Source of the DNA: Lachnospiraceae bacterium V9D3004
Lineage (GTDB): Bacteria; Bacillota; Clostridia; Lachnospirales; Lachnospiraceae
Direction of reading: 5' to 3'
Assembly (NCBI GenBank): GCA_000621985.1
Contig: JHWW01000001.1
Location: forward strand, 434,001 to 498,000
DNA length: 64,000 bases
Every line of letters begins with the position of its first letter. The stretch's first letter is position 1. The notes beneath the pieces are model-generated. The model had not been told where the DNA came from and did no database searches. It saw only the letters and a program-made list of their open reading frames with translations. This document shows positions 41,271 to 64,000 of this stretch, piece by piece. The translations under genes were made by a program, and so were the position numbers.

Positions 41271-42947
41271 ATGCATTCGATCAGAACTATACTAATAATG
41301 TTAATATGTTTTTTAGTCATCGGAATGTACGTTGTTCTGACCGGCAACAGCATGTATTATCTTGATGATATAATTGAGATTAATTCCAGGGAGACGATGG
41401 ATTCACTTGCAAAAGAGAAAGCAATGGAGCTTAATACCCATTTTGAGGGTGTTGAGCGTGCTGTCGGAGTGCTTGGCAACTATATAAAAGATACTGTTGA
41501 TAAAGAAAAGGACAGTCATGAAAAGCTTAAGATAGACAGAGCATATTCAGACAGTTTTTTGAAGGATATAAGGACAAGACTTGAAGAATCTTCCAAGGTT
41601 TTGGGTAATGTGGCAACAGTATACTTCAGAATGAATCCGAATGAGTACAGCAGTACTTCGGGATTGTTTTTGACAGAGGACGGATACGGGGATTATATCA
41701 GTACGGTTCCGACTGACATTCTGAAATATGATGAGAATGACAGGGAACATGTCGGCTGGTATTACGAGCCTGTTGAGAGCGGCCATGCCTTGTGGATGTC
41801 GCCGTATGTCAACAGGAATATAAATGTTTACATGATATCATATGTGGCACCGATCTATGTTGAAGGCAGATTATTCGGTGTCATCGGAATGGACATTAAG
41901 ATGTCGGGGATACATAACGTTGTCGATTCGGTTGATTTTAACGGCGGAACGGGATTTCTTGCCGACGATAGGGGTAATCTTGTGTATCACAAAGATTTTC
42001 CGAACGGACTTAAGGCTGTTAAGTTCAATGATGAACTTCGTGAAGTCGGTAAGTATCTGACTAATGAACAGGCTGAGTCCGGCGATATAATCAAGATCAA
42101 ATGGAACGGGGTAAGGCATAGGATGGCGCTTGCCAATCTCTCCAACGGAATGATACTCGCAATATCAGTTCCGTATTCGGAATTGATCCGTCCAATTGAA
42201 GGAATGCGTAAGAATCTTATAGCAATATCGATAATAGTTGCGCTTATGCTGATCATAATAATATGGAGAATACAGGTCAGAATAGTCAATCCTATCAGGG
42301 GGCTTACAATAGCTTCTTCTAGAATTGCGAAAGGCGAGATGAATGTCCCGATCGAGTATTATTCAAAGGATGAGATCGGAATACTTGCCGGCAGTATCAG
42401 GTCAATGCGTAAGGAGCTTCAACAATATTTTTCTTATATTCATAAGCAGGCATATATGGATGTCATGACAGGTGTTGGTAACAAGACGGCATATTTTGAA
42501 CTGATCCATCTGATGGACAGGAAGATAAATGAAGGAATGGCCGACTTTGCGATTGCTATCTTCGATATAAACGGACTCAAAAATATTAACGATAATTTTG
42601 GACACGAAACAGGTGATCTCTTTATTACGGATGCAGCAGATGCATTGAAGAGAGTGTTCGGAGCCGAACATATATACCGTATAGGCGGTGATGAATTCAT
42701 TATCGTTCTTGAACACATCAATAAAGAAGTAATAGCCGAATATTTTATATGGTATGAAGCAGCTCTTGCCGAGATCAACAGTGAGGAAAGACCTTATAAG
42801 ACAACTCTGTCAGTCTCCAAGGGCTATGCGTTCTATGATCCCGAACAGGATAAAGAATATAAACAGGTATTCAAACGTGCGGATGCAAGCATGTATAAGG
42901 ATAAAGAAGCATATTACAAAGGTCGTAATGACAGGAGAAAAAGATAA
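41271..42947 (+). CDS. Membrane diguanylate cyclase with dCache, HAMP and GGDEF domains
   Basis: 558 residues. The first helix is at about 5-24 and the dCache domain contains VGWYYEPVESGHALWMSPYV and SYVAPIYVEGRLFGVIGMDI. The second helix is at about 312-332, followed by HAMP (VNPIRGLTIASSRIAKGEMN) and a GGDEF domain with AIAIFDINGLKNINDNFGHE and the intact active site RIGGDEFIIVL. It should make c-di-GMP in response to an extracellular ligand. A strong GGGGGG site precedes it, and its stop overlaps the sigma-factor start by one base. Confidence 0.9.
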   Translation: MHSIRTILIMLICFLVIGMYVVLTGNSMYYLDDIIEINSRETMDSLAKEKAMELNTHFEGVERAVGVLGNYIKDTVDKEKDSHEKLKIDRAYSDSFLKDIRTRLEESSKVLGNVATVYFRMNPNEYSSTSGLFLTEDGYGDYISTVPTDILKYDENDREHVGWYYEPVESGHALWMSPYVNRNINVYMISYVAPIYVEGRLFGVIGMDIKMSGIHNVVDSVDFNGGTGFLADDRGNLVYHKDFPNGLKAVKFNDELREVGKYLTNEQAESGDIIKIKWNGVRHRMALANLSNGMILAISVPYSELIRPIEGMRKNLIAISIIVALMLIIIIWRIQVRIVNPIRGLTIASSRIAKGEMNVPIEYYSKDEIGILAGSIRSMRKELQQYFSYIHKQAYMDVMTGVGNKTAYFELIHLMDRKINEGMADFAIAIFDINGLKNINDNFGHETGDLFITDAADALKRVFGAEHIYRIGGDEFIIVLEHINKEVIAEYFIWYEAALAEINSEERPYKTTLSVSKGYAFYDPEQDKEYKQVFKRADASMYKDKEAYYKGRNDRRKR

Positions 42948-43456
42948 TGACATCAGATAGCCGGGATAATATTCCTTTTGAAGAAGTATATGAGCAGTAT
43001 TATGACAGGTTGTTCAATATGATCTATATGAAGTTGATGCACAGAGAAGACACCGAGGATGTGGTGGAAGACACTTTTATTAAAGCGATGAAAGCCTATT
43101 CGGGTTATGACAGCAGCAAGGCTTCGGTCGGAACATGGCTTTATCGTATTGCAAATAACTGTATGCTCGACCATATACGAAAGGAAAAAAGAAGGGTTAC
43201 CGAGCCGCTTGAAGTTATCGGGGAATTTGGACTTACGGATCCCGAACTTGATGCGCTTACAGAAGGGTATAATATCACAACTATCAGAATATTGAGTAAA
43301 CTAAAGGACAGCGACAAAGAGATGCTCATGCAGCGATACGGAATGGGACTCGACAATTCCGAGATCGCAGATATTCTCGGTATCAGCTCCAAGACGGTCA
43401 GTAAGAGGTTTGAGAGACTTCTTGATAAATGCCGCAAGATAGCGGACGGGTTGTAA
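42947..43456 (+). CDS. ECF-type sigma-70 family RNA polymerase sigma factor
   Basis: 169 residues with region 2 (FEEVYEQYYDRLFNMIYMKL, then DVVEDTFIKAMKAYSGYDSS and WLYRIANNCMLDHIRKEKRR) and region 4 (LKDSDKEMLMQRYGMGLDNS, IADILGISSKTVSKRFERLL). There is no region 1 or 3, as in ECF factors. It is translationally coupled to a diguanylate cyclase and precedes a small double-glycine peptide, a secreted protease and a giant secreted protein, which are candidate regulon members. No classical anti-sigma gene is next to it. Confidence 0.9.
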   Translation: MTSDSRDNIPFEEVYEQYYDRLFNMIYMKLMHREDTEDVVEDTFIKAMKAYSGYDSSKASVGTWLYRIANNCMLDHIRKEKRRVTEPLEVIGEFGLTDPELDALTEGYNITTIRILSKLKDSDKEMLMQRYGMGLDNSEIADILGISSKTVSKRFERLLDKCRKIADGL

Positions 43457-43612: not shown

Positions 43613-43861
43613 ATGCCGGATGTAGAAAAAATTTTGAACCGCGCTGATTTTACAGCCGGAAGTGATCATAAGAACAGACTTCGAAAGAAGTTATTTCATA
43701 ATGATAATAATGATACCGTATCGGAAATGCCTCTTTCGGTTTCCGGTGGCGGTTCTGATAAAGTTGCCGGAAAAAACAGAATATCGATAGATGATCTGGA
43801 TATGGTTGCGGGAGGAATCAGCGATCATACCAATAACAAAAAAAATATCGATATAGAATAA
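43613..43861 (+). CDS. Small double-glycine-leader-like peptide 1
   Basis: 82 residues with a strong GGGAGG site. The N-terminal half (ILNRADFTAGSDHKNRLRKK) is basic and helical. The middle is a Ser/Gly linker, and ISIDDLDMVAGG at 58-68 is a classic double-glycine leader motif of the kind cleaved by C39-type peptidase transporters. The 14 residues after GG (ISDHTNNKKNIDIE) are hydrophilic with no Cys. The N-terminal helix is unlike ordinary bacteriocin leaders; it may bind the sigma factor encoded just upstream. It could be an exported signal, a RiPP-like precursor or an anti-sigma-like regulator. No C39 transporter gene is in this window. Confidence 0.7.
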   Translation: MPDVEKILNRADFTAGSDHKNRLRKKLFHNDNNDTVSEMPLSVSGGGSDKVAGKNRISIDDLDMVAGGISDHTNNKKNIDIE

Positions 43862-43894
43862 ATGACGGTAAATTGATCGGATGTGTAAAGCGGT

Positions 43895-45739
43895 ATGAAA
43901 AGAAATAATGTGAGACGGACAGCATTGATCATGACCTTAATTATTTTAACTGTATATATGCTGTTTTCGAATATATATTGCAGAAATGATATAGTTACAC
44001 AAAGTGAAACGCTTCATTATGATGAAGTCGCATCGCTGCAGAGTGAATCGGAAGACGATGACAGTTTGACGATCTCAAAAGATCAGACTGATGGCGATCA
44101 GTCGGGAAATGCCGGTTCATGGGCATGGCATAACGACGGGACATTCTGTTATGAGGATAATGCGGGATCGGCTTTTGGCGATCCGGAGACAGTATGCGCC
44201 GTTGAAGGAACAGATATCAATGTAGAGGGACTTAAGAACCGAAATCTTGGTATATCAAAAGATATAATTGTTGCGGTGATCGATACGGGAATAGATATCG
44301 ATCATGAAGACTTAAAGGACATGTTGTGGAAGAATACCGGTGAGATACCGGGCGACGGAATTGATAATGACGACAATGGTTTTGTTGATGATGTAAACGG
44401 CTGGAATTTTTACGGTAATAATTCAAAGATGTATAACACCGGGAATTATTCCGAAGATGCCCACGGAACCCATATCGCGGGTATAATTAACAGAACGGTA
44501 AAAGAAGTGTTCGATATGCCGGCATCGGGACCGAAGATAAGTATCATGCCGGTCAAATCAGTGGGAGGACCGGATAACACTGGGACAGTATCTTCGATAA
44601 TCAAAGGAATACAATATGCAAAAGCCAATGGAGCTGATATATGCAACATAAGTCTTTCATTTAAAAAATGGAATGATAATCTGTACAATACTATCAAGGA
44701 TTCGGGCATGTTATTCGTTGTTGCAGCGGGAAACGGTGAAAGTGATACAGTCGGTACGGGATTTGAACTATATGATACAAAAAGATATCCGGCCTGCTAC
44801 GGTCTTGATAATGTTATAGTTGCAGCCAACATGCGCTGCGACGGAAAGCTTCATTACAGTTCCAATTACAGTAAAAAATTCGTAGATATCGCAGCACCGG
44901 GAACGAAGATATGGAGTACCAGTACTGTAAGAGCCGGTTATGAATACATGACGGGAACATCAATGGCAGCGCCGTTTATAGCGGGGGCAGTAGCATGCGT
45001 AAGCGCTGTTCATGGTGATTGGGATATATATGATATAAAAGACAGCATATGTAATACGGCACGAAAACTTCCTGATCTTGAGGATTACATAAGAACAGGC
45101 GGAATGCTTGATCTGACAGCGGCTGTTGATTATGATCCGACAGTTACACAGGCACCGACTTCGACACCGGCAGAAACCACATCACCCGCACCGACGACAG
45201 GCGTGACACCAACTGAAGTGCCGCAGACAACCACATCCCCGGACGATCCGGAAACAGCAACTAAAGAGCCGGAGATTACCGTGACACCGACAGCAGGCGT
45301 GACACCAACTGAAGTGCCGCAGACAACCACATCCCCGGACGATCCGGAAACAGCAACTAAAGAACCGGTGATTACCGTGACACCGACAGTGACAGCGACA
45401 CCGGAGAACACATTGACAACAATGACAACCGCACAGCCGGACGGCTCCGGATCGACTACGAAAGAGTCTTCAACCTCATCACCTTCAAAGGCTGTCAAGG
45501 TTGAAAAAGGAGCAATATACACCGCCGGTAAAGGACAGACCAAAGCAAGATATCTTGTTAAAAATGTTAAGAAAAGGCGGGTATATTATTACAGATGTCT
45601 TGTCGGTAAGAAGGTTAAAACCGCAATTGTCCCGAAGAAGATCCGTCTTAGGGATGGAAAGTTTTATAAGATCACCGGGATTGACAAGAAAGCATTCAAG
45701 GGTTTGAAGATTAAGCGAAAAATAAAAGCAAAGATATGA
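43895..45739 (+). CDS. Secreted subtilisin-like serine protease (S8) with basic C-terminal domain
   Basis: 614 residues. An N-terminal membrane or signal helix (about 8-27) and an acidic linker lead to the S8 domain with Asp130 in IVAVIDTGIDIDHEDL, His190 in EDAHGTHIAG, Asn280 in VVAAGNGE and Ser356 in GTSMAAPFIAGA. A Pro/Thr linker follows, then a basic tail (VEKGAIYTAGKGQTKARYLV .. KIKRKIKAKI) that resembles the ends of the giant proteins. The linker contains a perfect 32-residue repeat. It probably acts at the cell surface, possibly processing the adjacent peptides or giant proteins. Confidence 0.9.
   Translation: MKRNNVRRTALIMTLIILTVYMLFSNIYCRNDIVTQSETLHYDEVASLQSESEDDDSLTISKDQTDGDQSGNAGSWAWHNDGTFCYEDNAGSAFGDPETVCAVEGTDINVEGLKNRNLGISKDIIVAVIDTGIDIDHEDLKDMLWKNTGEIPGDGIDNDDNGFVDDVNGWNFYGNNSKMYNTGNYSEDAHGTHIAGIINRTVKEVFDMPASGPKISIMPVKSVGGPDNTGTVSSIIKGIQYAKANGADICNISLSFKKWNDNLYNTIKDSGMLFVVAAGNGESDTVGTGFELYDTKRYPACYGLDNVIVAANMRCDGKLHYSSNYSKKFVDIAAPGTKIWSTSTVRAGYEYMTGTSMAAPFIAGAVACVSAVHGDWDIYDIKDSICNTARKLPDLEDYIRTGGMLDLTAAVDYDPTVTQAPTSTPAETTSPAPTTGVTPTEVPQTTTSPDDPETATKEPEITVTPTAGVTPTEVPQTTTSPDDPETATKEPVITVTPTVTATPENTLTTMTTAQPDGSGSTTKESSTSSPSKAVKVEKGAIYTAGKGQTKARYLVKNVKKRRVYYYRCLVGKKVKTAIVPKKIRLRDGKFYKITGIDKKAFKGLKIKRKIKAKI
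45199..45390 (+). repeat. Tandem 96-bp repeat in the protease linker
   Basis: Two copies, 45199-45294 and 45295-45390, are nearly identical and encode a 32-residue unit (GVTPTEVPQTTTSPDDPETA..). Slippage or unequal crossing would change linker length in frame. Confidence 0.85.
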
Positions 45740-45762
45740 CCGACCTTGGGAAACAGAATATT

Positions 45763-45832: not shown

Positions 45833-48800
45833 ATGCGTAAATTTAAACAAAATGCAAAGAGAATTTTGTCTGTAGCGCTTTCCGCAGCATTGATTGTTGA
45901 GATGGGCGGATATGCACCGCAGACGCAAGCAGCCGCAGAGAGTGGATATCAATATCTTGAAGCTGCTACGATGCCGGAAGAGATTCAGAATGCAGATAGT
46001 TTTTACGTAGGAACTACATCCGCAGATCTTAAGGAAGATGCCGCAGGACCATATCTGTTAAAGATCGGTCGTGGCGGAAGCGCGACAGAGCCTGCAAGTG
46101 TTACAGTTAAGATCGCAGATGCAACTGCAAGTTACGGTAAAGACTACAATGTCTATGAATTTGTTTCAGGGGAAGAAGGAAAAGAGGCTTATTCACCTGA
46201 GGATAACAGATCATTACTTGATATTATAGAGGATAATGATGTTATCGAAGAAGAGCTGACAGGCACTGATGATGCCGATTCTGCAAAAGAAGCAGAAGAA
46301 AAAAGCGCGGTGGATTATTATGAAAAGGTAATGGATGATAAGGAAAAAAATGAAGCCGATAATAATCCTTTGGAAAAAGCCGTTGCAAAAGAAGAACCGG
46401 GTGATTATGCAACCAATCCGCTTGCACAGGCAAAAGAGAAGATGACAGGCGACAAGTCAGACCGTGAAGTAATGACAAGTGCAAAGCAGGATATGGTGGA
46501 TTACCTCTCTGATGTGGGTAATTATATAACAGAGATGGTTCCGGGTGCTGCACTCAAGCTTGATTTTGCAAAAGGCGAGACCGAGAAATATGTTGCAATA
46601 GCTCCAGTTGACAATGATGAGAAAGATGGAAAGAGAACGTTCTATATGGTATTATCCGATCCTTCTGAAGGAATGACCAATAGTACAGTATCCGAATCAA
46701 TCTTTACAATTGTTGATGATGAGCCTTCGGAGAATGCTTCCATATCATTCTCTGCTGCATCATACACGGCTAAAGACGGTCAGGTAGAGATAAAGCTTTT
46801 AAGAACAGGCAATATGTCAGAGACTGTTCAGGTAAAGATGGAATCATCTGCGGGAACGGCTGTATCCGGAAGAGATTTCTCTCCTGTTAATGCAGAAGTA
46901 ACATTCCCGTTTGGAATTAAGGAACGTACACTTAAGATCGGTATAGATAACCAGTATCTGTACAAAGACGCTGATTTTACACTCAAATTAAAGAAGAGTG
47001 CAGGCGCAGCACCGGGAGAAACTGCTAAAGCAGTTGTAACAATTCCTGCGCCTAAGAAGAACACGGAAGAGTCTTTGGATGACGAAGATGAGTGCACTGT
47101 TGTATCAACATCAAGTTTGTACGATGATTATGTTCGTGCGGGCGATATCATGAATGACAGTTCTCACGTTAAGGTGCGTGGTGACGGAAGTTCATGGATG
47201 GCAGGCGGTAATCTTCATCAGAAAGTTGATGATACATGGGTTGATGACAAATTCTATCTTTCAGGAACCAACCGCAATGAGCGTATGTGGATATATGACG
47301 GCTTCAGATTAAGCTGGACCAAGAGTTCCGGAAAATCAAGCTGGAGTAGTTCCAACATATCTTATTATTGTACCTCTGGTGATTATGACAGAAAGATATT
47401 CATTGATACAGGCGACGAACCTCGTTTCAACTGGCGTGAAACTTCGGATTACTTCTTCGGAGATACAGACGCTGCCGCAGTTAAGATATATTCCAAAAAC
47501 TGGGGAGGAAAGCAGAATGAAACGGAAGTTGACTGGATAACCCCTATTAAGAGAGTATTCCTTGTAACCCAGAAAGCTCCGGACACACTGTCATTCTTTA
47601 ACGGAACTTCAACCAAACAGGCTGACGGCAATGCTGCAAAAGCATCACTTGTCAATCAGGTAAGCGGACAAGACTATGCTATCAAGCACAGTGATGAGAA
47701 GATTGTTCTCCAGTCTAATGTCTGCAATGGTAAAGGAAGACTTACAGGTGCGAAGATCTGGGATTCTTCAAAGAAGAATTCAAGAGATATTGATACCAGA
47801 TTCCTTAACGGTTTCAAAGCCGGTGACCAGGCTATACAGATAACTCTCAACAATGATTTCTGTAACACATACAGAGATTATATTAAGTATGACGAGTATT
47901 CAAGCAATAGAGGAACAAGAATTAAAGGTAATATCATTGTTCAGCCGGTGTTCGGTTATAACGATGCTACGGTACGCTTTGAAGAAAGAAGTGCAGACTT
48001 TACAGGTGGTGTTAAAGTTAATGCAACCGTAAAGATTAACGGAAGCAATATTAATTATGCGAAGAATTATACATATCATAAGGGTGATGTTCTTACCATG
48101 AGCGCAACTTCATCCAATAATCAGTATGAATGTCTTGGTATGGAATATTACTATTATGATGAAAATCTTCGCAGAGATATGCATGATAAGAGATATTTTG
48201 ATAAGGGACAGCTTGTGTTCACAATAGATACGTCTAAGAACTACAAGTTTGTACCTATCATAGTGAAGAAAGAGAATAAGATCACAGTACGTGTGCCTGC
48301 TGCCGATAAGAACAAATTCATGGCAGAGGGTATGTTCGATCCTACATTCTTTAATTCACACAGCACATTGTCAGTCGATAAAAATTATTATGATATCACA
48401 GTGGCTGATGATAATATGACGGTTCAGGGACAGACATATACACTTGCGGCAGAGACTTCAAGTTCGTCATATGTTCCTGTATGGCTTGACAGTAATTCAT
48501 CAAAATATTTCGTGGGAAGTTCACATCAGTTCAAAGCTCAGGATGTAAAAGAGAATAATATTATCCGTCTTTATGCCGGAACTGCAAGTTCCAATTATGT
48601 GGCATTTAAAGGAAAATTATATTATCAGAACTTCTCGATATTGTCCAAGGTAAAGAATAATGGCGTTGGAGATCCTATTCTTCCTGCAGAGGGTGGATTT
48701 GTAAGTGTTGGAGGACAGCTTAGTATCGCAGAAGGTGACGGTGGTTTCCAGACCAATGCATTCCGTTATGTGAGATCCATCACCAATGAGGCGAAAAAAA

Positions 48801-51800
48801 CTGTTACATTTGAACCTAACAGTGGTAGCGGTCAGCCGTTATATTTCCAGGCACAGTTGGGAGCTTCGGGTGCTTCTGAAGTAAAAGAGATAGCTTATAC
48901 GCCGAAGACAGGATCGAAAGCAACAGTATCCGACGGAACGAATAATGTATCAAGTTACATATGCGACATGAGTAATGTGACTATCCGTACCAATGATGCG
49001 AGTCAGGGTTCACCGGTATTCACCAATATATATACTTCTACAAAGAACACTTCAGCGACTGAAGGCGTATATATGAGTGGTGAGATGACAACCATCACTG
49101 TTACCGTACCGGATACAAGCACAGAACATGTTAAGTCAGTTAAATTCTATATATATGACAGCAAAACAAATGAGATCAAGTGTACTATGCCGGCATCAAA
49201 AGTTGCCGGGCAGACGGGTAACTGGTCGGCATCAAAGATATTTGAAGCTGCCGGTTCGGATGAATATGCGGAATCTGACAGGATATATGTTCAGATGATA
49301 ACCGACAAGGCGCCTGAGTTAATAGAGACTGTCGATACCAAGAACATGTCGCAGTCAGCTAAGGATGCAATAAAGCAGACTATATATGCTCCTGTTAATA
49401 CAGGATATACTCTTATCCGTGCATTTGAGTATGCAGATCCTACAACTCAGAAGGTTAATATCGGTACTATGGAAGGTATGGGAGGACTTCCGCTTCTCAA
49501 TAACTTCAACGGTAATATGAATCTTGGTCCTGTACAGCTTGGAATCGAGAATCTGTATGATGACAAGGGCAATGTGGTAGGAACAAGGATCAAAGTAGGT
49601 GCCGCACTCGATTTTGAGAAGACCAGCTTTGCAAGATCTGATGGATATGAAACAGCAGATGATGGTGTTGACTACGGTTCAAAGATTCATATACTGGATA
49701 ATCTCAAGTCCAGTTACAAAACAGCTTTTAAGAACGCTTTGAAGGGAGACAAATCAAGAAATATGTCTTCATTTGGAGGCAGTAATTGGGGCGTTTATCC
49801 GATAATCGGATTCTACATGGATTTTGCTATCAAGACGAAAACAAACGGTGCAGGCGAAGTGCTTGATCAGCATCTTGAAGTACAGGGTGGCGGAATCTAC
49901 GTTGGTGCAGCTGCAAATTACAGTATTGCGTGGTATGCATTGATACCAGTTGTATTCATTCCATGTTACTTCGGTGTATCGGGAAGCCTTAAGATAACTC
50001 TTCAGGCGGGAGCAACGACCAATGTAAAAGAAGAGACAAAAGAAGAGCAGATGGATGAATTCATCGGAGTTTCACATAACCTGACAGAGGAACTTAATTT
50101 CGACTTCCAGCTCAGTGTTATGGCAACCATTCAGGTATACTGTGGTGTAGGTGTATGCGGAACACTCGGAGTGAGAGGCGGTATGCAGGTAGATGCTAAT
50201 TTCCTGTGGTATCCGACACTTGCAGCTCATAATTCATACTTTGATCCGGTTGGACTTACAATAGGAGTATCTTTCAAATTATGGGTTGACCTGTTGTTAT
50301 TCACAATTCCTATCCCTGTATATACACTTAAAGATTTTAACTGGGGTCTGAATGAGCAGTATGAGGAATTGAAGGATAAGAACAAGGACGACCTTAAGGA
50401 ATTACTCGAGAAGTACGAGAAGAAGGATAATAAACCTAAGAATGCAGCGGATACTCCTGATAATAAGGACGAAGGAGAAAACGAGATCAAATATGAGGTT
50501 AAGCCTATGAATCATAAACCTTCCGAATGGGCAGGTAATGTAGGCTATACTTCTCCGGATGAAGTTAAGACCATGGCAACCTACAAAGAGAAGAATAACA
50601 AAGTTATTCAGGCTGACGGTTATGATGATCCGGCTGCAAAGCTTATGGATATGGGCGAATACGGAACACTTCTTGTATTCCTCCAGAAAGATTATTCAAG
50701 AACAGCCGAGGAACAGACAGCCATAAGCTACAGTGTATATAAGAATGGTATGTACAGCGATCCTGTCATTATCCAGACAGATGGCACTGCCGACTTCCAG
50801 CCTAATATATGCGAAGCAGGAAATGACATGATAATCACATGGATATCCAGTGATCCGGATATTGATAAGGGGGATCCTTCCAATGATGATTATCAGAAAA
50901 AATATGTCACATTACAGGAAGTATATTCGGTAAAAGTACCTAAAGCAGACCTTGCAGAAGGAAAGCATATAGAGCAGGATTCTATCAGTAAGCTGACTAA
51001 TGACAGATGGTATGATTCTTATCCGTTTGCGATATACGATAATGTCACCGGCGATTATAACGTATACTATGTTGCTTCAGCAGAAGCTACCGAAGGTGGG
51101 GCCGAGGCAGTTGATTTTGCCAATCCGATGAGTACATCGAAAAAGACTTATTCTGCTATCTGCTACAGAGTATATAACAATGCGTTAAGCGATTGGGATG
51201 TAACATCATTTGCCAAAGATGAGAAGCCGTCTAAAACTACGGATGAAGAATATATGGAGCAGCTTGAAGAATATGGCGGACAGAGATTCTTATCCTCACC
51301 GATTAAAGATGAAGATGTGGATATGGAAGATCCGCTTATTGCCGATCTGACCGGAATCGCTTATAACGGAACGGGAATATACGCATACACAATTGATAAG
51401 GATAACAGTGCAGATACCGATGAAGACAGAGATCTCTTCGTGCAGTTCTACAGATTCGGTTCCAGAAAGACTTATGTTCCCGTAAGGATCACAGATGATG
51501 ATGTGGCTGACAGTATGCCGCAGATCATCCGAAAAGGCGGCGAGACAGGCGGAACAACTTATCTGTTCTGGAAGAGCGGAGATACACTGAAGTATATTGA
51601 TCTTACGAGACTAGTAAAATATGGTATTGATAATAACGGTAAGATAAAAGCGTCAGCATTGGCTGAAGGTTCAACGGAAGCTGTACAGCAGGGAGAGCAT
51701 GATGAATTTGACAGTTCTTTAACCGAAACACAGCAGGAGGCTCAGGACTACAAGTTCACTATTGAACAGGTTGAACCATATGGCGCTGAGGATAATCAGT

Positions 51801-54142: not shown

Positions 54143-54182
54143 AATAAATGTAACTTTTATAGATAAAAAAGGAGGGTTTATC

Positions 54183-54335
54183 ATGGCAGAGGAAAAAGAA
54201 AAAGTTGAAGAAAAGAAACGTGAAATGCTTGATCTCGACGATATGGATAGTGTAGCAGGCGGAGCTAATCCATTTGCCGCATTAAAGAGAGTAGAGAACC
54301 ATCTTATCGATGATGAACTGAAAAAGAATATTTAA
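54183..54335 (+). CDS. Small double-glycine-leader-like peptide 2
   Basis: 50 residues with AGGAGGG upstream. A charged helix (MAEEKEKVEEKKREMLDLDD) leads to MDSVAGG at 21-27, then a 23-residue tail (ANPFAALKRVENHLIDDELK..). Leader position, LDDMD spacing and GG match peptide 1 at 43613, but the N-terminal extension of that peptide is absent. It sits between giant protein 1 and a metallopeptidase-like protein, and ends at a strong terminator. It may be an exported signal or RiPP-like peptide. Confidence 0.65.
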   Translation: MAEEKEKVEEKKREMLDLDDMDSVAGGANPFAALKRVENHLIDDELKKNI

Positions 54336-54375
54336 GATCACGCCGGTTGCTATTCACAGGCATCCACGCCGGCTG

Positions 54376-54412
54376 GCCGGGCTGCAGTTTTTGCAGCCCG
54401 GTTTTTCTTTTA
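54376..54412 (+). terminator. Strong intrinsic terminator after peptide 2
   Basis: CCGGGCTGCA (54377-54386) pairs perfectly with TGCAGCCCGG (54392-54401), followed by TTTTTCTTTT. Confidence 0.92.
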
Positions 54413-54499: not shown

Positions 54500-55453
54500 G
54501 TGGTGAACGAACAATATGGAAAACAGGTAATTGAGACACTTGCACAGATATATTCGCAGTTGTTCATAAAACCCGGACCTGACAGTGAAGAAGTATACAG
54601 GGATGTAGTCGGTAATGGAAAGATAGTTGAAGACGGAGATCTGTCTCATTTTACATGCAGTGAGAATGACAGTCTTTCATACGTAGAAACTCCTGCAGGA
54701 GATGTATGCGTGATCACGCTTAATGAAAGAGAAGACTTCGAGACATTTATAAGGATCATGGCAAAAAAATGCAGGATGGATGATATACCCGCAAACCAGG
54801 GAGCTTACATACTTGACGGCGTTATTAATTGGAGGAAGATATACGCACATCAAGCGGAATTCCTTGCCCAATCGTACAAAGAAGGAACTACAGAACCCGA
54901 CTGGGATGCTGAATTCGAACGATTCACATCAGACAGGAATAATTATAAGGATGTTCTCATAGTATTGTCCGCGGGACCGTACAGCAATATCCCTGCTTCA
55001 AAGTTAGGCTTTGAGGAAGAGGCATGGTTGGATCATTCGTATATCATCAGAAAATATCATGAATGTACTCATTTTATATGCAGAAAAAAGTACCCCGATA
55101 AGATAGATGCAATATGGGACGAGCTCGTTGCGGACGCTGTAGGAATATATGCGGCATTCGGAGAATATGACGCAGATATGGAGAAGGTATTCCTGGGAAT
55201 CGGTGATGACGGATATATCGGCGGAAGACTTGAGAATTACGTAAACGATAATTCAGTAGTTGTCCGTGCGGCAGGGCTTTTGCCGGAGAGTGAATTGGTG
55301 GGAGAAGCAGAGAAAAAAGAACGCCTTGATAAACTTTCATACAAGATAAATGACATGCTGGAAGAAATTACCAATATTGCCCGTGATAATACCGGAATCC
55401 CACCTTTTGAATTCGCCCTGTTATTGGAAGAACAATATGATAGATTAACATGA
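54500..55453 (+). CDS. Metallopeptidase-like protein with HExxH motif
   Basis: 317 residues with no signal peptide. IIRKYHECTHFICRKKYPDK places HECTH at 187-191, the zinc-binding HExxH pattern, and AIWDELVADAVGIYAAFGEY supplies Glu208, 17 residues on, as a likely third ligand. A hydrophobic strand (YKDVLIVLSAGPYSN) lies just before. The start is GTG 54500 or 54503 after AAAAGGGG. It belongs to an uncharacterised family as far as I can tell. Its place between a double-glycine peptide and two giant proteins suggests peptide or protein processing in the cytoplasm, but the neighbourhood is the only evidence. Confidence 0.7.
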   Translation: MVNEQYGKQVIETLAQIYSQLFIKPGPDSEEVYRDVVGNGKIVEDGDLSHFTCSENDSLSYVETPAGDVCVITLNEREDFETFIRIMAKKCRMDDIPANQGAYILDGVINWRKIYAHQAEFLAQSYKEGTTEPDWDAEFERFTSDRNNYKDVLIVLSAGPYSNIPASKLGFEEEAWLDHSYIIRKYHECTHFICRKKYPDKIDAIWDELVADAVGIYAAFGEYDADMEKVFLGIGDDGYIGGRLENYVNDNSVVVRAAGLLPESELVGEAEKKERLDKLSYKINDMLEEITNIARDNTGIPPFEFALLLEEQYDRLT

Positions 55454-55702: not shown

Positions 55703-55793
55703 ACACATCCTATGATGATTTTGAAGGGGTAATAAAAGCTATATTGACATTCATATAATATAAATAACAAACCAAAAAGGAGGAATGAATGAA

Positions 55794-58700
55794 ATGCGAA
55801 ACATGAAAAAGTACACCAAGAAGATCATGGCCGTAGCATTGGCAGCTGCAATGGTAATCCAGCAGGGCGCCTATGCCGCACCGCAGACAAGCGCTGCTTC
55901 GAAGAAGACAGGCTATACTTATCTTCAGGCTGCAACAATGCCAAAAGAGATCATGGCAGCAGACAGTTTCTATGTTGGAACAACATCTGCAGATCTTGAT
56001 GAGGCATCTGATGATCATTATCTTCTTAAGATCGGACGTGGAGGAAAAGCAGAGGACGCAGCAAGCGTTACGTTGAAGCTATCCGATGCAACATCTAACT
56101 ATGGTAAAGATTACCAGGTATTTGTTCATGACAAAGGGCCGTTCGGAGGAGAAGCGATTTCACCTGACGATAATAGATCATTACTTGATATTATCAAGGA
56201 TAATGACGTTATTGATGAAGAATTGACAGGTCCTACCGATGCTGATTCATCAAAGAAGGCAGCAGAGGCTCAGGCAGAAGATTATTACAAGAATGCCGAG
56301 GCACAGGCAGAGGATAATGATGACAGTGCTGATGCAAATAAGGAAGAAGGAGATTACGGAACCAATCCTTTGGCACAAGCCAAAGAGAACCTGACAGGCG
56401 TAAAGTCAGACCGTGAAGTTATGACAAGTTCAAAACAGAGCATGGTTGATTATATGTCGGATGTCAGCAATTACATAACCGAGATGGTTCCGGGAGCTTC
56501 TTTAAAAGTTGATTTTGCTAAGGGCGAGACAGAAAAATATGTCGAGATCGTACCTATCGACAATGATGAGAAAGACGGCAATCGTGTATTCTATCTGACA
56601 TTATCGGATCCTTCGGAAGGATATACAAACAGTTCCGTATCAGAGTCAATGTTCACGATCGTTGATGATGAGCCGGAAGAAGCTGCTGAGGTTTCATTCT
56701 CATCCGCAACCTATAATGCAAGTTCCAACCTTGTTAAGGTTAAGCTTTTAAGAACCGGTAATCTGGCTGAGACAGTTCAGGTAGACATGGTATCAGTTGC
56801 GGGAAGTGCGGTATCAGGTAAGGATTTCTCACCGGTTAACGCATCTGTAGTATTTCCGTTTGGCGTGACAGAGCGTACTCTTGAGATCGCTGTTGATAAT
56901 AAGGATCTTAAGAAGGAAGCTGATTTTACACTGAAGCTTAAGAAAGGATCGGGTGCTGTTCCCGGCAAGACCGGATCTGCGACCGTAACCATCCCTGCTT
57001 TTGATAAGTCTAAAGAAGAGGCAGAGATGAAAGAAGTTGCCGAAGGTAAGGGTGACGATCCCGAAGATGAGATCGCATCATTGCAGGCAGCAAGCCTGAG
57101 TGATGTCGTATGGGGTCCGGATCTTGTATATCCGCAGTATCAGGAATCCTGTGGCGGTGGCGGATCAAGAGAATGGTCTGGCGGACATTTAAAGCAGACA
57201 GTAGATGACAGTTCCGCTTGGGATCGCTTCTATATGTCACAGTCAAAGAGTAACATTGATATGTACATCTATGACGGATTCAAGGTTAAATGGAGCAAGG
57301 ATTCGAAGATATCCAGCTGGTCAAAAACTGAGATCGAATGGCGTGACAGATCAGGAAACGGTAAGATAGTATGTGAAACAGGCGATAAGCCTCGTTTTGA
57401 TACGGAAACACGAGGAACCTACTGGTTTACACAGAGGAATGCTTCGGAAGTAAGAGTATGGGTTAACAACTGGAAAGGTAAGAAGAATGTTCTTGAGACA
57501 CACAGAATAGATCTTTCCAAGAGACCGTTCAAGGTTTCGCTTCAGAAAGCAGATACTTTGTCTTATGTTCTTGAAAACGGTCAGAAAGCCGAGAATAAGA
57601 ATGCTACAGGCGCTGAACTGTACGATGTGGCTTCAGGCAAGGATTATGCCATAAAATATGCGGGCGATTATATGGTTATAAGACCTACAAACACTACCGG
57701 AATAAGCAGACTTGTCGGTGCCGTTGTATATAATCCAAAGAATAAGAAGCAGAGTAATCTTATAAGCAGCAAATATATCGGCAACTATGCTAATAACAGC
57801 AATGCTTTGCAGATCGCACTCAATAACGATTTCTGCAGGGATTATAATGACTATATTAACTACGAAGCTAACGGCGATGGTGGAAGACTTTGCGGTAGTA
57901 TCGTTATCAAACCGGTATTCGATTATATCAATTCAGAGATCACCGTTAACAGAAACGAAGAGATAATGGCAAACGGCCAGTTGCTCAATGCTTCGATCCA
58001 GATCAACGGTCAGAATGTTAATTACGGACAGACTTATACATATCATTTTGGAGATTCTCTTGTATTCACTTCCAAGGTAGATGGAAATGAATATACAGCT
58101 GCGGGATTCCGTGTAAGATCAAGGGTTCCAAAAGTTGATCAGGAATATTCGGATATATGGTTTTATGAGAATAATAAGAGAAAAGTAGTGGTTGACAGAT
58201 CAAAATATACGATCGTACCTTACTTTACTGAGAATAATAACAGAATAGTAGTCCGTGTAAATGAAAGTGACTTATCCAAATTCAAGAAGACGGGTATGTT
58301 CGATAACAGTTACTTTAATAAGAATTCGGAAAAAGGTAACGGATATTATGATGTTATAGTAGTAGCTTCCGGAGTATATTCCGGACAGCAGATAACACTT
58401 GCCGCAGAGACGAATGACGAATATATGCCTATATGGAAGGAAGTCAATAATTCCAAGTATTACATGGGCAATTCATTCGAATATAAGGCAAAAGACAGAA
58501 GAACAGCCAATATCGTATATCTCTACGCAGGCAGCTCGGGAGGTAACCATACATTCATAAAGGGAAGAATGTTCTTTGAGAATAATTCCATTAAGGACAG
58601 AATGAATGGTATAGATGCTGCGGGAACCCCGGTTGTACCGGCACCGGGCGGATATATCGGAGCAGGCGAAGTGTCTGCTGTAGCTGATGAGAACGGTAAT

Positions 58701-61700
58701 TTTGCTACTGACGGATTCGTTATTCCAAAGTCAATTGTTGTCGGAGGAAGTACAGTAACATTTGATGACAACAGCAGACCTTTATATATACGCGCAACAT
58801 TGGGTGCTGCAGGAGCTACCGAGACAAAGGATATTAAGCTTAAGACCCAGGGTAAAAAGGTTGTAAAGAAGATCTGTGGTTTCAATTTTACGAGTTATGA
58901 AGCCGACAGTTTTACAACAGATCTTGGTAATGTGACTATAAGAACCAATAATTCAGACGCAGATAATCCGGTGTTTGAACAGATATACGTAACTAACAAG
59001 GGTCAGACGACCGAAACCGTATATATGAACGGTGAATCGACTGATATTACGGTTGTTGCTCCGGATAAGACCAGTGAGAAAGTTAAGAAAGTATCATTCC
59101 TTATATATGATAAGGATACCAATGCGGTAAAGAAGGAACTGAAGGCAAGACAGATGGGCTCAAACTGGACTGCTACTTATTCATTTGAAGGAGCAGGCAG
59201 TGATGAATATGCCCAGAATGATAAGATCTTCGTACAGATGACTACCGATAAGGCAGCCAAGTTAAAGGATGATCCGAGTACCAAGAATATGTCACAGGAT
59301 GCAAAGAATCAATTGAATCAGACGATATATGCTCCTGTATTCACCGGACTTACGCTTGTTCGTACCAAGGAATATGACGAGCCTACAGTACAGAAGGCTG
59401 ACATGGGTACGTTGCAGGGTATGGACGGACTTCCGTTAGTTAACAACTTCAACGGTAACATGAATCTTGGACCGGTTCAGCTTGGAATTGAGAATCTCTA
59501 CGATGATCAGCAGAACATATGCGGTACAAGAATTAAAGTCGGTATGGGACTTGATTTTGATAAAACAAGTCTTAAGAGTGATGGAAGTAATCTTGATGAT
59601 GCCGGCAATGATTACGGCGGATTCCTTAAGAAGGTCGGTGATCTTAAGGGTTCATTCTCCAAAGCATTAGACAGTGTCAAGGGAGATAAGACAAGGAATG
59701 TATCTTCTCTCGGCGGTAAAAACTGGGGAATCTATCCGATCATAGGATTCTACATGGACTTTGCACTTAAGACAACATATGACGCAGCAGGACAGGCTAT
59801 AGGAACCAAGCTTGAAGTACAGGGCGGCGGTATATACTTCGGAGGTACCGGTAAGTTCAGCGTTGCATGGTATGCATTGATCCCGGTTGTATTCATTCCG
59901 TGTTATTTCGGTATATCCGGTGAACTTACAATTCTCCTTCAGGCAGGAGGAACCACTAAGGTAACCAATACGGAAGAAGAGGTTCAGGTTGAAGACTTCA
60001 CGGAAACATCGCATAACATATCGGAAGAACTTGTATTCGACTTCCAGTTGAGCGCAGCAGCTACCGTTCAGGTATACTGTGGTGTCGGAATATGCGGAAC
60101 GCTCGGCGTAAGAGGTGGTTTGGAACTCAACGCTAACTTCATATGGTATCCGACACTTGCCGCACACAATACATATTTCAATCCTGTAGGCGCAACTCTT
60201 ACCGTAGGCTTCAAGATGTGGGTTGACTTACTGCTGTTCACGATCCCGATCCCTGTATATACACTCGCAGACTATGATTGGGGACTTAATAAGCAGTATA
60301 AGGAACTTAAGGATAAGAACGCAGACGACCTGAAGAAATTACTTGAGAAGACCGAGGTTAAGAATAATAATAACAATAATGCGGATAATTCTGCAGAAGA
60401 TGCATTCGGAGCCTCAGAAGCCGAGCTTATAGTAAAAGACAAAGGTCATAAGCCGTCAGAGTGGGCAGGGGATGTAGGTTATACATCACCGGATGAAGTT
60501 AAGACAATGGCAACATTTAAGGAGAAGAATAATATTCCGCTCCTTTCGGACGGATATGACAACCCTGATGCAAAACTGCTTGATATGGGCGATAATGGAA
60601 CTCTTCTTGTATTCCTTAGTAAGGATATGAGCAGACAAGCTACAGAGATCACTTCACTAACCTACAGTGTATATAAGGATGGTGTATACAGTGAGCCCGT
60701 AGCGATCCAGAAGGATTCAACTGCAGACTTCCAGCCTAATGTATGTGAGGCAGGAGATGATGTGATCATTACATGGATATCAAGCGATCCTAATAAAAAT
60801 ATAGGTGAGCCGGAAGATGGTAATTATCAGAAGAATTATCTGAAGGCCCAGGAAGTATATTCCGTAAAAGTATCAAAGCAGGATCTCGCAGATCATAAGG
60901 TTATTGATCAGACAAAGATCGCACGGTTAACTGATGATGATTGGTATAATTCCAATCCGTTCGCAATATATAATAGCGGCAATGGCGATTATAATGTATA
61001 TTATGTGGCCACTGCTGAAGATACTGCAGGAAGTGCAAGTGCAGTTGATCTTGCTAATCCGATGAACACAGACGGAAAAGCATATTCGGTTATTGGTTAC
61101 AGAGTATACAGTGAATTCGGTGGAAGATGGGAAGTAGAGCATTTTCTCGATGCTGAAAAGCCGGCAGGCATGGACGATACAGATTATGAAAACCAACTTA
61201 AAGCTTATAACGGACAGAGATTCTTAAGTTCACCGATCAAGGATCAGGATGTTGATATGGAGGATCCGCTTATAGCTGATCTTACCGGAATCTCTTATAA
61301 CGGAATCGGCGTTTACGCATTTACCGTTGATAAGGATAACAGCGCAGATACAGTTGATGACAGGGATCTGTTCGTACAGTTCTATAATTTCAATGACAGA
61401 AAGACATATGTTCCCGTAAGGATAACCAATGACAACCTGTCAGATACCAATCCGCAGATTGTTCGTAAGGGCGGTTCTGCAGACGGAACAACATATCTGT
61501 TCTGGAAGAGTGATAATACGCTTTCATATATCGATCTGTCAAGCCTGGTAAAATATGGAATAGATGAAAACGGAAAGATCAAAGACAGTGCACTTCATGA
61601 AACATTTGATGATCCGGAAGACTTCGGATACGGGGATCATGATCCTAATCAGACTCTTACCGAAGAAGAGCTGGCAGCCGCTAATTACAAGTTCGAGATA

Positions 61701-64000
61701 TTCGAAGTTGATCCGTATTATGAAGATGATAATCAGTTCTCGTCATTCAGCCAGTATAAGGTAGCTGTAGACAAGAAGGATAATCTGTATGTTATCTATG
61801 TTGATAACGGCAGTGATGTAAAGAACGGTGAAGAGGCAACTCAGGACATCTTCGCGACGGCAATGATCGACTCAAAGGTTAAACCGTCAAGAAAAGAGAT
61901 TGATGCTGATACGGAAGTATATAATGAAGACCCCGGTTTTGTGACTGATGACAATGACGATAATGTTAAGAAGTGGTCACAGGCCAACAGACTGACAGAT
62001 AACGGACAGTACAGTGACGGCCCGGCATTTGTGGTTAATTCAGACGGTAATATGGTATTGATCTACAATACATATGATCTTGATACTGTTGATACCGGTA
62101 AGGAAAATGAAGACGGTACTAAGGAACAGAGCGTAGAAGTAAGGAATATCAAGTTTATGTCCAGTATACTTGAACCTTACGGTTCCATAGAAGCCGAGAA
62201 GATCGAATTGTCCGATACAACTCCTGTTGAGGGAGAAGATGTAAGAGTTGATGTTACATTCAAGAATACAGGTCTTACCGCAACAGAAAAAGGATTTGAC
62301 GCAAAGGTATATCTTGAGTATAAGGACGGCACGAAGAAGGATATTGATACATTCTCTTATGAAGGCAGTCTTGCACCTGTTTCAATCGCAGCCAAAGACT
62401 TCACATTCACAGCTGATGATAAGATTGAAGGAGCTAAGGTAGTAGTTGAAACAACAGAAAAAGACCTGAACGGAACCAACATTAATAAGAGTAATGCATT
62501 CGAGAAGAAGGCAGAATATACTATAGTATCCAATAACAGTTATCAGGGTGCTGATTCTAAGTTCTACACAGAAGTAGAAGTAACAAATACCGGTAATGTT
62601 CCGGGAACCGAAGGGGATGTACTCAAAGTGTTGTTCGACGGACCATATGCCGATGCTTCTTCATTCGGACTTGATAATGATCTTCTTGCATCGGAAGGCA
62701 TCGCACTTGAACCGGGCGAGAGCAAGAGCTTAAGCTTCACACTTGATGTTCCTGCAAGTGCATTCAACTTCTATGGAAAGATCCGTACGAAGGCTCAGGT
62801 ATTTGATAAGGATGGCAAGGAATACAAAGATTTCCTCTGCGATGATCTGTTCATGTACCAGCCTGCAGAGCTTTCACTGAATCAGGGCAAAGAACTCAAG
62901 ATGAATGAGGAAGATACCAAGAATCTCAGTGATCTCGGATTCAAGTATTCGACAATCGATACATTAACAAAGATCGAGCCGATGTATGTAGTTGACGATC
63001 AGTCGGTAGTTACCGTTGAAGATGATAAGCTTGTTGCGGTAGGCGCAGGTACGACAACAGTAACGGCATATGCATCTCCGTACGGAACATCTGCAACAAT
63101 GACTGTAACGGTTGAAGGTAAGTATTCAAATGATGACGATGTGGTTAATCCGACAAAGGCTCCTTCGGGAATAGACCTTTCAGGAACCAAGGTATTGTAT
63201 GAAGAAGGAACCGTAGCATACGACGAAGCTACAGGAGCGGTAACAGGTACGAATGTTAAGGGACTTCTTATTCCTCTCGGAGTTACAGTTCCTCGTGGAG
63301 CGCCTGTAGACATTACCGTGTCAGGTACTGCATCAACAGGTATGAGAAGCTGGTTGTCGGATGGCAATGAACAGAGAATGTCAGATATCATGGATCCGGT
63401 CAACTTCGATAAGAAATATACACTCATAGCTGAACCTTATGAGAGCGGAGATACAGCAGATCATTTTCAGCTCAAAGGACCGTCATATGATTCTACATTC
63501 AGTAAGATAACTATCACTAAGGTAGTTGTAGATTATGATCCGTCCAAAGCACCGACTCCTTCACCGGAACCGACGGCAAGACCGACTAAGGCACCTACAG
63601 CTGAACCTAAGGTAACGGATGCTCCTGTGGTAACAGATGCACCTAAGACAACAGATGCTCCGAATCCAACAGCATCACCGGCTGCAACAACAGTACCGGC
63701 AGGTATAACTGCAAGTGCTGCACCGGGTGCAACAACAGCTCCAACCGATACAACTGCAACAGTCGATAAGGCTAAGATCAAGATCAAAGGTAAGAAGACT
63801 GTTAAGGTTGGAAAGACAATTAAGCTTACAGCTAAGCTTACAAATGTCAAAGGAAAAGTTAAATGGAGTATTAACAAAAAGAAACTTGCAACTATCAAGA
63901 AGACCAAGAAGAATACGGTTATTAAACTGCAGGCCAAGAAAACAGGTACAGTAACGGTAGTTGCAACGATCAAGAAAGTTAAAGGCAAAATTAAGATTAA
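55794..64000 (+). CDS. Giant secreted multidomain protein 2, paralogue of protein 1 (runs off the right edge)
   Basis: At least 2735 residues; the frame is still open at the window's end, and comparison with protein 1 suggests only a handful of residues are missing. The order matches protein 1: signal peptide (KKIMAVALAAAMVIQQGAYA), an interrupted Calx-beta (insertion with PLAQAKENLTGVKSDREVMT), and a second Calx-beta (ETVQVDMVSVAGSAVSGKDF). The conserved core follows (NLGPVQLGIENLYDD, QVYCGVGICGTLGVRGGLEL), then propeller-like repeats, CARDB-like domains, Big_2, carbohydrate-binding-like domain, Pro/Thr linker and basic end. ATG 55794 fits the AGGAGG site (10 bases); ATG 55785 is too close. 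Short stretches of near-identical DNA (about 53340 and 63245) suggest recent exchange between the copies. Confidence 0.85.
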   Translation, partial: MRNMKKYTKKIMAVALAAAMVIQQGAYAAPQTSAASKKTGYTYLQAATMPKEIMAADSFYVGTTSADLDEASDDHYLLKIGRGGKAEDAASVTLKLSDATSNYGKDYQVFVHDKGPFGGEAISPDDNRSLLDIIKDNDVIDEELTGPTDADSSKKAAEAQAEDYYKNAEAQAEDNDDSADANKEEGDYGTNPLAQAKENLTGVKSDREVMTSSKQSMVDYMSDVSNYITEMVPGASLKVDFAKGETEKYVEIVPIDNDEKDGNRVFYLTLSDPSEGYTNSSVSESMFTIVDDEPEEAAEVSFSSATYNASSNLVKVKLLRTGNLAETVQVDMVSVAGSAVSGKDFSPVNASVVFPFGVTERTLEIAVDNKDLKKEADFTLKLKKGSGAVPGKTGSATVTIPAFDKSKEEAEMKEVAEGKGDDPEDEIASLQAASLSDVVWGPDLVYPQYQESCGGGGSREWSGGHLKQTVDDSSAWDRFYMSQSKSNIDMYIYDGFKVKWSKDSKISSWSKTEIEWRDRSGNGKIVCETGDKPRFDTETRGTYWFTQRNASEVRVWVNNWKGKKNVLETHRIDLSKRPFKVSLQKADTLSYVLENGQKAENKNATGAELYDVASGKDYAIKYAGDYMVIRPTNTTGISRLVGAVVYNPKNKKQSNLISSKYIGNYANNSNALQIALNNDFCRDYNDYINYEANGDGGRLCGSIVIKPVFDYINSEITVNRNEEIMANGQLLNASIQINGQNVNYGQTYTYHFGDSLVFTSKVDGNEYTAAGFRVRSRVPKVDQEYSDIWFYENNKRKVVVDRSKYTIVPYFTENNNRIVVRVNESDLSKFKKTGMFDNSYFNKNSEKGNGYYDVIVVASGVYSGQQITLAAETNDEYMPIWKEVNNSKYYMGNSFEYKAKDRRTANIVYLYAGSSGGNHTFIKGRMFFENNSIKDRMNGIDAAGTPVVPAPGGYIGAGEVSAVADENGNFATDGFVIPKSIVVGGSTVTFDDNSRPLYIRATLGAAGATETKDIKLKTQGKKVVKKICGFNFTSYEADSFTTDLGNVTIRTNNSDADNPVFEQIYVTNKGQTTETVYMNGESTDITVVAPDKTSEKVKKVSFLIYDKDTNAVKKELKARQMGSNWTATYSFEGAGSDEYAQNDKIFVQMTTDKAAKLKDDPSTKNMSQDAKNQLNQTIYAPVFTGLTLVRTKEYDEPTVQKADMGTLQGMDGLPLVNNFNGNMNLGPVQLGIENLYDDQQNICGTRIKVGMGLDFDKTSLKSDGSNLDDAGNDYGGFLKKVGDLKGSFSKALDSVKGDKTRNVSSLGGKNWGIYPIIGFYMDFALKTTYDAAGQAIGTKLEVQGGGIYFGGTGKFSVAWYALIPVVFIPCYFGISGELTILLQAGGTTKVTNTEEEVQVEDFTETSHNISEELVFDFQLSAAATVQVYCGVGICGTLGVRGGLELNANFIWYPTLAAHNTYFNPVGATLTVGFKMWVDLLLFTIPIPVYTLADYDWGLNKQYKELKDKNADDLKKLLEKTEVKNNNNNNADNSAEDAFGASEAELIVKDKGHKPSEWAGDVGYTSPDEVKTMATFKEKNNIPLLSDGYDNPDAKLLDMGDNGTLLVFLSKDMSRQATEITSLTYSVYKDGVYSEPVAIQKDSTADFQPNVCEAGDDVIITWISSDPNKNIGEPEDGNYQKNYLKAQEVYSVKVSKQDLADHKVIDQTKIARLTDDDWYNSNPFAIYNSGNGDYNVYYVATAEDTAGSASAVDLANPMNTDGKAYSVIGYRVYSEFGGRWEVEHFLDAEKPAGMDDTDYENQLKAYNGQRFLSSPIKDQDVDMEDPLIADLTGISYNGIGVYAFTVDKDNSADTVDDRDLFVQFYNFNDRKTYVPVRITNDNLSDTNPQIVRKGGSADGTTYLFWKSDNTLSYIDLSSLVKYGIDENGKIKDSALHETFDDPEDFGYGDHDPNQTLTEEELAAANYKFEIFEVDPYYEDDNQFSSFSQYKVAVDKKDNLYVIYVDNGSDVKNGEEATQDIFATAMIDSKVKPSRKEIDADTEVYNEDPGFVTDDNDDNVKKWSQANRLTDNGQYSDGPAFVVNSDGNMVLIYNTYDLDTVDTGKENEDGTKEQSVEVRNIKFMSSILEPYGSIEAEKIELSDTTPVEGEDVRVDVTFKNTGLTATEKGFDAKVYLEYKDGTKKDIDTFSYEGSLAPVSIAAKDFTFTADDKIEGAKVVVETTEKDLNGTNINKSNAFEKKAEYTIVSNNSYQGADSKFYTEVEVTNTGNVPGTEGDVLKVLFDGPYADASSFGLDNDLLASEGIALEPGESKSLSFTLDVPASAFNFYGKIRTKAQVFDKDGKEYKDFLCDDLFMYQPAELSLNQGKELKMNEEDTKNLSDLGFKYSTIDTLTKIEPMYVVDDQSVVTVEDDKLVAVGAGTTTVTAYASPYGTSATMTVTVEGKYSNDDDVVNPTKAPSGIDLSGTKVLYEEGTVAYDEATGAVTGTNVKGLLIPLGVTVPRGAPVDITVSGTASTGMRSWLSDGNEQRMSDIMDPVNFDKKYTLIAEPYESGDTADHFQLKGPSYDSTFSKITITKVVVDYDPSKAPTPSPEPTARPTKAPTAEPKVTDAPVVTDAPKTTDAPNPTASPAATTVPAGITASAAPGATTAPTDTTATVDKAKIKIKGKKTVKVGKTIKLTAKLTNVKGKVKWSINKKKLATIKKTKKNTVIKLQAKKTGTVTVVATIKKVKGKIKI

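Follow-up and report, generated by a model that had tools for sequence, protein, structure and literature searches.

The window, by which we mean the whole stretch of 64,000 nucleotides analysed here, spans C1:434001-498000 of a 3.42 Mb genome, and its end cuts through a gene cluster. The original prediction gave the gene order as cyclase, ECF sigma factor, GG peptide 1, subtilisin, giant 1, GG peptide 2, HExxH protein and giant 2, and this order is borne out, with all genes on the + strand. A GGDEF protein with a dCache-like sensor part and, by eye, a degenerate REDEF motif (39881..41257, +; PF00990 at 31 bits, above the cut-off, PF02743 under it) is followed by a membrane diguanylate cyclase with dCache, HAMP and GGDEF domains (41271..42947, +; PF00990 at 94.6 bits). 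The stop codon of the latter overlaps the start of the gene for an ECF-type sigma factor (42947..43456, +; PF04542 at 63.6 bits, TIGR02937 at 93 bits with a cut-off of 42.9). Then come GG peptide 1, an 82-residue protein of sigma-linked type in which 14 residues follow the leader end IDDLDMVAGG (43613..43861, +), and a subtilase of family S8 with an N-terminus that appears hydrophobic by eye (43895..45739, +; PF00082 at 156.5 bits). Giant 1 (45833..54142, +; 2769 residues) is followed after 40 bases by GG peptide 2, of giant-linked type and 50 residues long, with the core ANPFAALKRVENHLIDDELKKNI (54183..54335, +). A DUF7005 protein with an HExxH motif (54500..55453, +; PF22541 at 185.8 bits, cut-off 27) precedes giant 2, which has 2742 residues in all and occupies 55785..64000 (+) and a further 13 bases past the window end. 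Both cleavage motifs named at the outset, DDLDMVAGG and DDMDSVAGG, are present in the window peptides.

Since a terminator-like hairpin with a 13-pair stem, a consensus match only, lies 3' of peptide 2 (54375..54403, +) and no such site was called in the gap from giant 1 to the peptide, the two probably share one transcript, as judged from a scan whose background is high (15 terminator-like sites where shuffles give 7.9, and 52 promoter-like sites where they give 33.7). The same scan places a weak promoter-like match (9 of 12) over the start codon of peptide 2, at 54156-54184.

The continuation of the cluster was read from the stretch covering the end of giant 2 onward (L002, C1:497001-517000). 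A third GG peptide (L002:1041-1199) starts 41 bases beyond the window end and 27 bases after the stop codon of giant 2. Behind it, at L002:1138-15208, lie in this order subtilase 2, a STAS protein, ATP-grasp, MATE, GH3, SpoIIE, an RsbW-like protein, a short HlyD-like protein, the NHLP-type transporter ABC1 with a C39 domain, and ABC2; a phosphopantetheinyl-transferase-like gene on the opposite strand comes after ABC2. The open frame of subtilase 2, a paralogue of the window subtilase with 51% identity, overlaps peptide 3, and the SpoIIE phosphatase, RsbW-like kinase and STAS protein form a partner-switching regulatory set in the same cluster. The requirement that the genome encode a C39 transporter is answered within the cluster itself: a single PF03412 match was found in the genome, and it lies 9.9 kb beyond the end of the window. 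The models for the peptidase-containing ABC exporter of NHLP/NHLM type are TIGR03796, TIGR03797 and TIGR03794 (Haft, Basu and Mitchell 2010, PMC2887384). By two of these three models the exporter here is of NHLP type, with ABC1 at 925.1 bits against the curated cut-off of 853.3 for TIGR03796 and ABC2 at 721 bits against 709.4 for TIGR03797. It differs in its adaptor, a HlyD-like protein of only 158 residues that matches positions 1-45 of the 421 in TIGR03794 at 26.4 bits, under the cut-off of 156.2, and in its substrates, which are short-leader, cysteine-free peptides encoded beside giants.

Peptides 2 and 3 are 82% identical, and RBS-like sequences lie upstream of peptides 1, 2 and 3, as they do, by a loose test, before 34 of 36 peptides of the named loci described below. 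The consensus of the 2/3 type consists of a leader ELDLDDLxxVxGG and a core xxFxNVPRVPxxxIDDxLRxKI. A degenerate DNA pattern of the leader end has exactly three matches in the 3.42 Mb genome, namely the three peptides of the cluster, and none for a backwards control; as the pattern was derived from these peptides, only its rarity is informative. In a rough comparison of the cores of peptides 2 and 3 over 23 codons dN is 0.08 and dS 1.65, and the last 15 leader codons give 0.18 and 0.30, respectively, values that are likewise rough given the short length, dS being undefined in several other pairs. Read from the sequence, peptides 1-3 carry the GG or GA end and the hydrophobic residues at -4, -7 and -12 expected of C39 substrates, and cleavage is predicted. 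The C39 protease LahT150 is described in PMC6363468 as needing GG at leader positions -1/-2 together with positions -4, -7 and -12, and in these positions (-12, -7, -4, -2, -1) the peptides agree with LahT and other Gram-positive C39/PCAT systems. The substrates described there are lanthipeptide and related precursors, whereas the window core looks unmodified and is paired with a surface giant.

PCAT-exported GG peptides are commonly classed as bacteriocins or pheromones. The peptides scanned have no match above the cut-off in Pfam, NCBIfam or PHROGs, and the leaders reach the ComC, BlpC, VP1 and bacteriocin models below threshold only (ComC 17.5 bits against 20.4, BlpC 16.1 against 70). A bacteriocin, whose core would kill relatives while the giant aids delivery or shields the producer, could explain the GG leader, the C39 exporter and these sub-threshold matches. 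It seems very improbable to us, for the 41 listed cores of 21-28 residues (some records entered twice) are generally not cationic, with net charges of -7 to +4, they are conserved across families, and no immunity gene was recognised among the ORFs of at least 100 residues listed at an isolated pair in Petroclostridium.

Might the core instead be altered by an enzyme before export, as in an NHLP-type RiPP, with the giant as a bystander? The exporter is of the fitting type, NHLP loci have been described with peptide-modifying enzymes (PMC2887384), and a peptide might still be a substrate of the ATP-grasp, GH3 and DUF7005 proteins encoded in the window cluster. However, peptides 1, 2 and 3 have no listed match to the NHLP precursor leader model TIGR03793, for which the best score elsewhere is 11.7 bits against 50.9 (L223), and by this model, with the precursor definition of PMC2887384 and PMC4289311, the peptides are not NHLP precursors. 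None of the 41 cores contains cysteine, which together with Ser and Thr would be abundant in the core of an NHLP RiPP precursor, no YcaO, LanM or radical-SAM domain appears among the Pfam matches of the scanned cluster genes, and it is the giant that is the constant neighbour. We regard a modified product as improbable. The viral contigs scanned with peptide 3 yielded no relative, and core-like stretches in long ORFs amounted to weak matches only (E 1.8 or worse). At L180:5028-6542 (+), in the genome G334, at least six short GG-ended ORFs follow one another, and their cores are dissimilar.

The two giants are paralogues with 56% identity (62% in the co-divergence comparison below). By eye their N-termini carry a signal-peptide-like stretch, of Sec type in giant 1, which points to secretion via Sec. 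Giant 1 contains Calx-beta (PF03160 at 71 bits, gathering score 27) and a predicted beta-propeller, the conserved segment of the giants; the modelled part (50555..52477, +) shows the propeller followed by an Ig-like part (AF2 pLDDT 82.3, pTM 0.85). In a Foldseek search of this segment against the PDB the best match is a sialidase (E 1.6e-8); the predicted likeness to sialidase-type propellers is one of fold class only, with 7-11% identity and low query TM values of 0.23-0.41 among the 50 matches shown. The search with giant 1 at E<=1e-10 found giants in five of 250 family genomes, its own included, which is a lower bound because giants later came to light in G029 and G240, which belong to that sample too. 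All five, as well as G029 and G240, are among the 28 of the 250 genomes with an NHLP ABC1 over the cut-off, and the probability that all five would be exporter-positive by chance is 1.3e-5; G029 was found via its exporter and G240 via its peptide, so neither is independent of this link. None of the nine other genomes of the genus showed a full-length giant, seven matching in part and mostly at the C-terminus; the system is therefore patchy. Residues 2454-2766 of giant 1, its C-terminal region, also have a 62% identical counterpart in a 3050-residue frame of the same genome (G000:C1:561905-562834), and weaker ones in relatives; this region is perhaps, as far as sequence can tell, a surface module held in common.

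Are the giant-type peptides tied to the giants? A 94-residue propeller segment aligned from five giants led to 50 named loci of Clostridia, some of which are records also carrying another label (L185 is G011, L212 is G233, L215 is G112, L221 is G029, L234 is G294). With a profile of seven peptides, 35 of the 50 loci are seen to have a peptide no more than 600 nt away from the giant, all distances being below 200 nt. Where more than 600 nt is available on both giant flanks, this holds for 30 of 36 loci, again at less than 200 nt, and for 28 of 34 after removal of the two loci that seeded the profile (L215, L221). There are 36 profile matches within 600 nt of a giant and four elsewhere, although these flanks make up only 51 of 828 kb. 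The peptide is 3' of the giant in 20 of the 35 loci and 5' in 15, which argues against a mere leader or attenuator. The giants lacking a peptide among the 36 are those of L195, L197, L200, L218 (a fragment), L230 and L232; by eye, L230 and L232 have a peptide with the same C-terminal end, and L197 and L200 each come from a genome that encodes a further giant which does have a peptide. G157 has a giant and no recognised peptide on its contig or in the seven-peptide search.

Because iterating the profile made it drift to leader-only matches, all counts use the seven-peptide profile or a 30-peptide alignment. At E<=1e-4 the latter finds a peptide in 44 of the genomes of the 50 loci, a figure that describes the pairing and is no test of detection, as 28 of the 30 rows come from those genomes. 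In the same genomes, with the weakest giant fragments left out and one of 94 bits kept, 50 of 58 peptide places lie less than 9 kb from a giant match on the same strand; of the eight unpaired ones, two (G424, G422) are on the contig of the exporter, within about 5 kb of it. Among strong giants, by our own cut those of 380 bits or more, 43 of 58 have a peptide on their contig and 15 have none, some of these at contig ends. Two strong giants occur together in 11 genomes, and in seven of these the number of peptides is two or more.

Searches that start from the peptide lead to the same association. Applied to 397 family genomes at E<=0.01, the seven-peptide profile has matches in 19, and the matching core is present at nine places, of which seven are profile rows; the other two, in G294 and G240, are new, and each adjoins a giant. 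Left out of this count are G339, G315 and weaker matches, several of which share the leader end only; the part after GG is unlike the core (by eye in G339, G315 and G334), and no giant was found in the stretch read for these three. The 30-peptide profile, applied to 391 genomes of the class at E<=1e-5, marks 12 places in eight genomes. All ten places outside the window's own genome have a giant on the same strand within 3.1 kb: less than 100 nt away in eight, 1.2 kb in L262, and 3.1 kb in L264, beyond a gene for 956 residues. Eight of the ten are not profile rows, the remaining two being rows from L187 and L204. Of the seven genomes concerned, five also figure among the 50, partly via other contigs, and G433 and G445 are new. 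Thus neighbourhood conservation, on which the original prediction had staked its refutation, holds for peptides of the 2/3 type across Clostridia, giant-first and peptide-first alike, and the pairing is well supported at the level of sequence. The paired system occurs in records named Lachnospiraceae, Oscillospiraceae, Ruminococcus, Monoglobus and Petroclostridium. At one place (L139:4936-12198, -, in G233:C138), itself a row of the seven-peptide profile, a giant-type GG peptide adjoins an unrelated secreted protein of 2354 residues with GIGGG repeats and an NHLP exporter.

NHLP ABC genes are present in 26 of the 50 giant loci, 23 of them among the 36 with two flanks. Of 20 records with no exporter in the locus (L189, L212, L227 and L234 having been left out of this search), 15 have TIGR03796 elsewhere at E<=1e-120, 11 of them over the cut-off; in the other five, all drafts, an exporter was not found, and three of these (L193, L202, L211) have a peptide. 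Petroclostridium sp. X23, whose chromosome is complete and carries no metagenome-assembly label, contains both partners and the exporter: two pairs lie at two places among other genes, without an exporter beside them, and two exporters lie elsewhere in the chromosome.

The main rival to a surface-partner role for the peptide is a pheromone, exported by the PCAT, accumulating and sensed, which would switch on the giant operon as its regulated output. GHKL kinases with LytTR regulators are the arrangement known from ComCDE/BlpRH, and such a pair is encoded in four of the 50 loci, with the regulator alone in one more (query sequences had come from two of the five records, L234 being one). The leader end is shared with ComC, BlpC and VP1, below threshold, and near-identical peptides stand beside divergent giants in one genome (L204/L256). 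We nevertheless consider a pheromone rather unlikely. No such regulator was found in 45 of the 50 loci within the available DNA, often a few kb on one side, and no GHKL/LytTR pair was recognised among the scanned cluster genes of the window locus. Typical pheromones are strain-specific, whereas these cores belong to no known family, are conserved across families and have a constant giant neighbour, and one peptide per giant is kept in several genomes.

Distances between giants correlate with those between peptides (rho 0.54, 44 pairs, none of 2000 permutations as high; L202 and loci with no usable propeller match left out), a correlation that could come from shared descent alone. In the L204/L256 record the giants are 43% and the peptides 92% identical, whereas in Petroclostridium the giants are 74% and the peptides 43% identical; therefore peptide and giant do not simply co-diverge. 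The window pairs stand at 62% for the giants and 82% for the peptides.

What could be the role of so small a partner? The pairing, the leader motif, the exporter genes and the gene layout are legible in the DNA itself. That a giant and a tiny peptide apparently built for export adjoin each other in a gut-type bacterium and in many relatives suggests joint action outside the cell. Our preferred reading, to which we assign a probability of roughly 0.4, is a two-part envelope system with a dedicated exporter, in which a peptide of about 22 residues acts with a Sec-exported beta-propeller giant at the surface. The giant would leave by Sec and remain at the cell surface; the NHLP/PCAT exporter would recognise the GG-leader peptide encoded beside it, and the C39 domain would cut after GG and release the free peptide outside, where it would act with the giant, most probably bound to it as a cap, a switch or a small subunit. 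Maturation of the giant may fall to proteases whose genes accompany some pairs: subtilase-like genes occur in nine of the 50 named loci (L215 supplied one query), in addition to the two of the window cluster and that of G240, and G011 has a papain-like protease gene 3' of the peptide. The functional unit would be the giant-peptide pair, with the exporter as the way out for the peptide, and the window holds two pairs inside a larger NHLP locus that also encodes the ECF sigma factor, GG peptide 1 and the SpoIIE/STAS/RsbW set. Only the giant, the peptide and the presence of an exporter at some place in the genome are nearly constant; other elements vary.

We place a surface partner first because of the pairing on either side, the several peptides with several giants, the conservation of the core and the example set by MAM. 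The points against it are the mixed co-divergence, the giants with no peptide, the five of 20 genomes in which no exporter was found, the peptide beside an unrelated secreted protein in G233:C138 and the joint AF2 model of the C-terminal 1138 residues of giant 2 with the read-through linker and peptide 3, which places the core without confidence (pLDDT 54-61). A broader proposal, which we advance only tentatively, is a system widespread in Clostridia in which each giant has a PCAT-exported partner of about 22 residues that joins it outside, export licensing the giant; in the window it would be under the ECF sigma factor, with peptide 1 perhaps its export-coupled regulator.

MAM of Faecalibacterium is, according to PMC12184118, a GG-leader protein found in the envelope and encoded adjacent to a PCAT, and shares both the GG leader and the PCAT with the giant-linked peptides. 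Its cargo spans residues 23-135 and self-assembles in models, in contrast to the window's approximately 22 residues and giant partner, and the leader motif MMMPAN given there is absent from peptides 1-3. Judged by titles and abstract openings, mostly in open-access journals, PCAT/GG peptides paired with Calx-beta giants were not found in the literature, and such a pairing was not seen in the accessible portion of PMC13289728 on rumen bacteriocins. We class the giant-peptide system with PCAT-GG peptide systems; a claim to more would be unproven. The cysteine-free conserved core and the near-constant giant neighbour point to another use of GG peptides, as partners of surface proteins, and provide a short testable motif, about xFxNVPRVPxxxIDDxLRxKI, for genes small enough for annotation to miss.

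Peptide 1 belongs to a separate family, and for it the expected co-occurrence with giants fails; it goes with the ECF sigma factor. It has look-alikes in G080 and G154, in which the giant 1 search of family genomes found no giant. For all three members of the alignment (window, G080, G154) the distance to an ECF sigma gene is 117-179 nt and the locus is one with an NHLP exporter, the link to the exporter being partly due to selection, as the members were chosen from such loci. Run against 250 family genomes, this alignment yielded no further strong member and one weak match (G241). Peptide 1 being of another family and sigma-linked, the two peptides noted in the window are therefore not one pair. 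Overall, the original prediction is supported in part.

Small GG- or AG-ended proteins of differing families adjoin or overlap ECF sigma genes in NHLP loci: at L260:7266-7942 (+) and L091:10036-10816 (-), with overlaps of 4 and 8 nt, respectively, and in the window at 42947-43861. Their position makes them candidates for export-coupled regulation of the sigma factor. L260 (G433:C32) encodes, in a row, STAS, HlyD-like, ABC1 and ABC2 proteins, a small AG-ended protein, the sigma factor, a subtilase, a giant-type peptide and a giant, a set that nearly matches that of the window, yet in another family. DUF7005 HExxH proteins like that at 54500-55453 recur in three other annotated NHLP-exporter loci (G104_C1, G154_C21, G179_C19). 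Upstream of the cluster the window contains phage-type integrase (36822-38234), DUF932 (25777-26712) and YqaJ recombinase (27645-28592) genes, perhaps leftovers of a mobile element, and at 14302-16053 a protein with a Schlafen AlbA_2 domain and a RecG-like C-terminal part.
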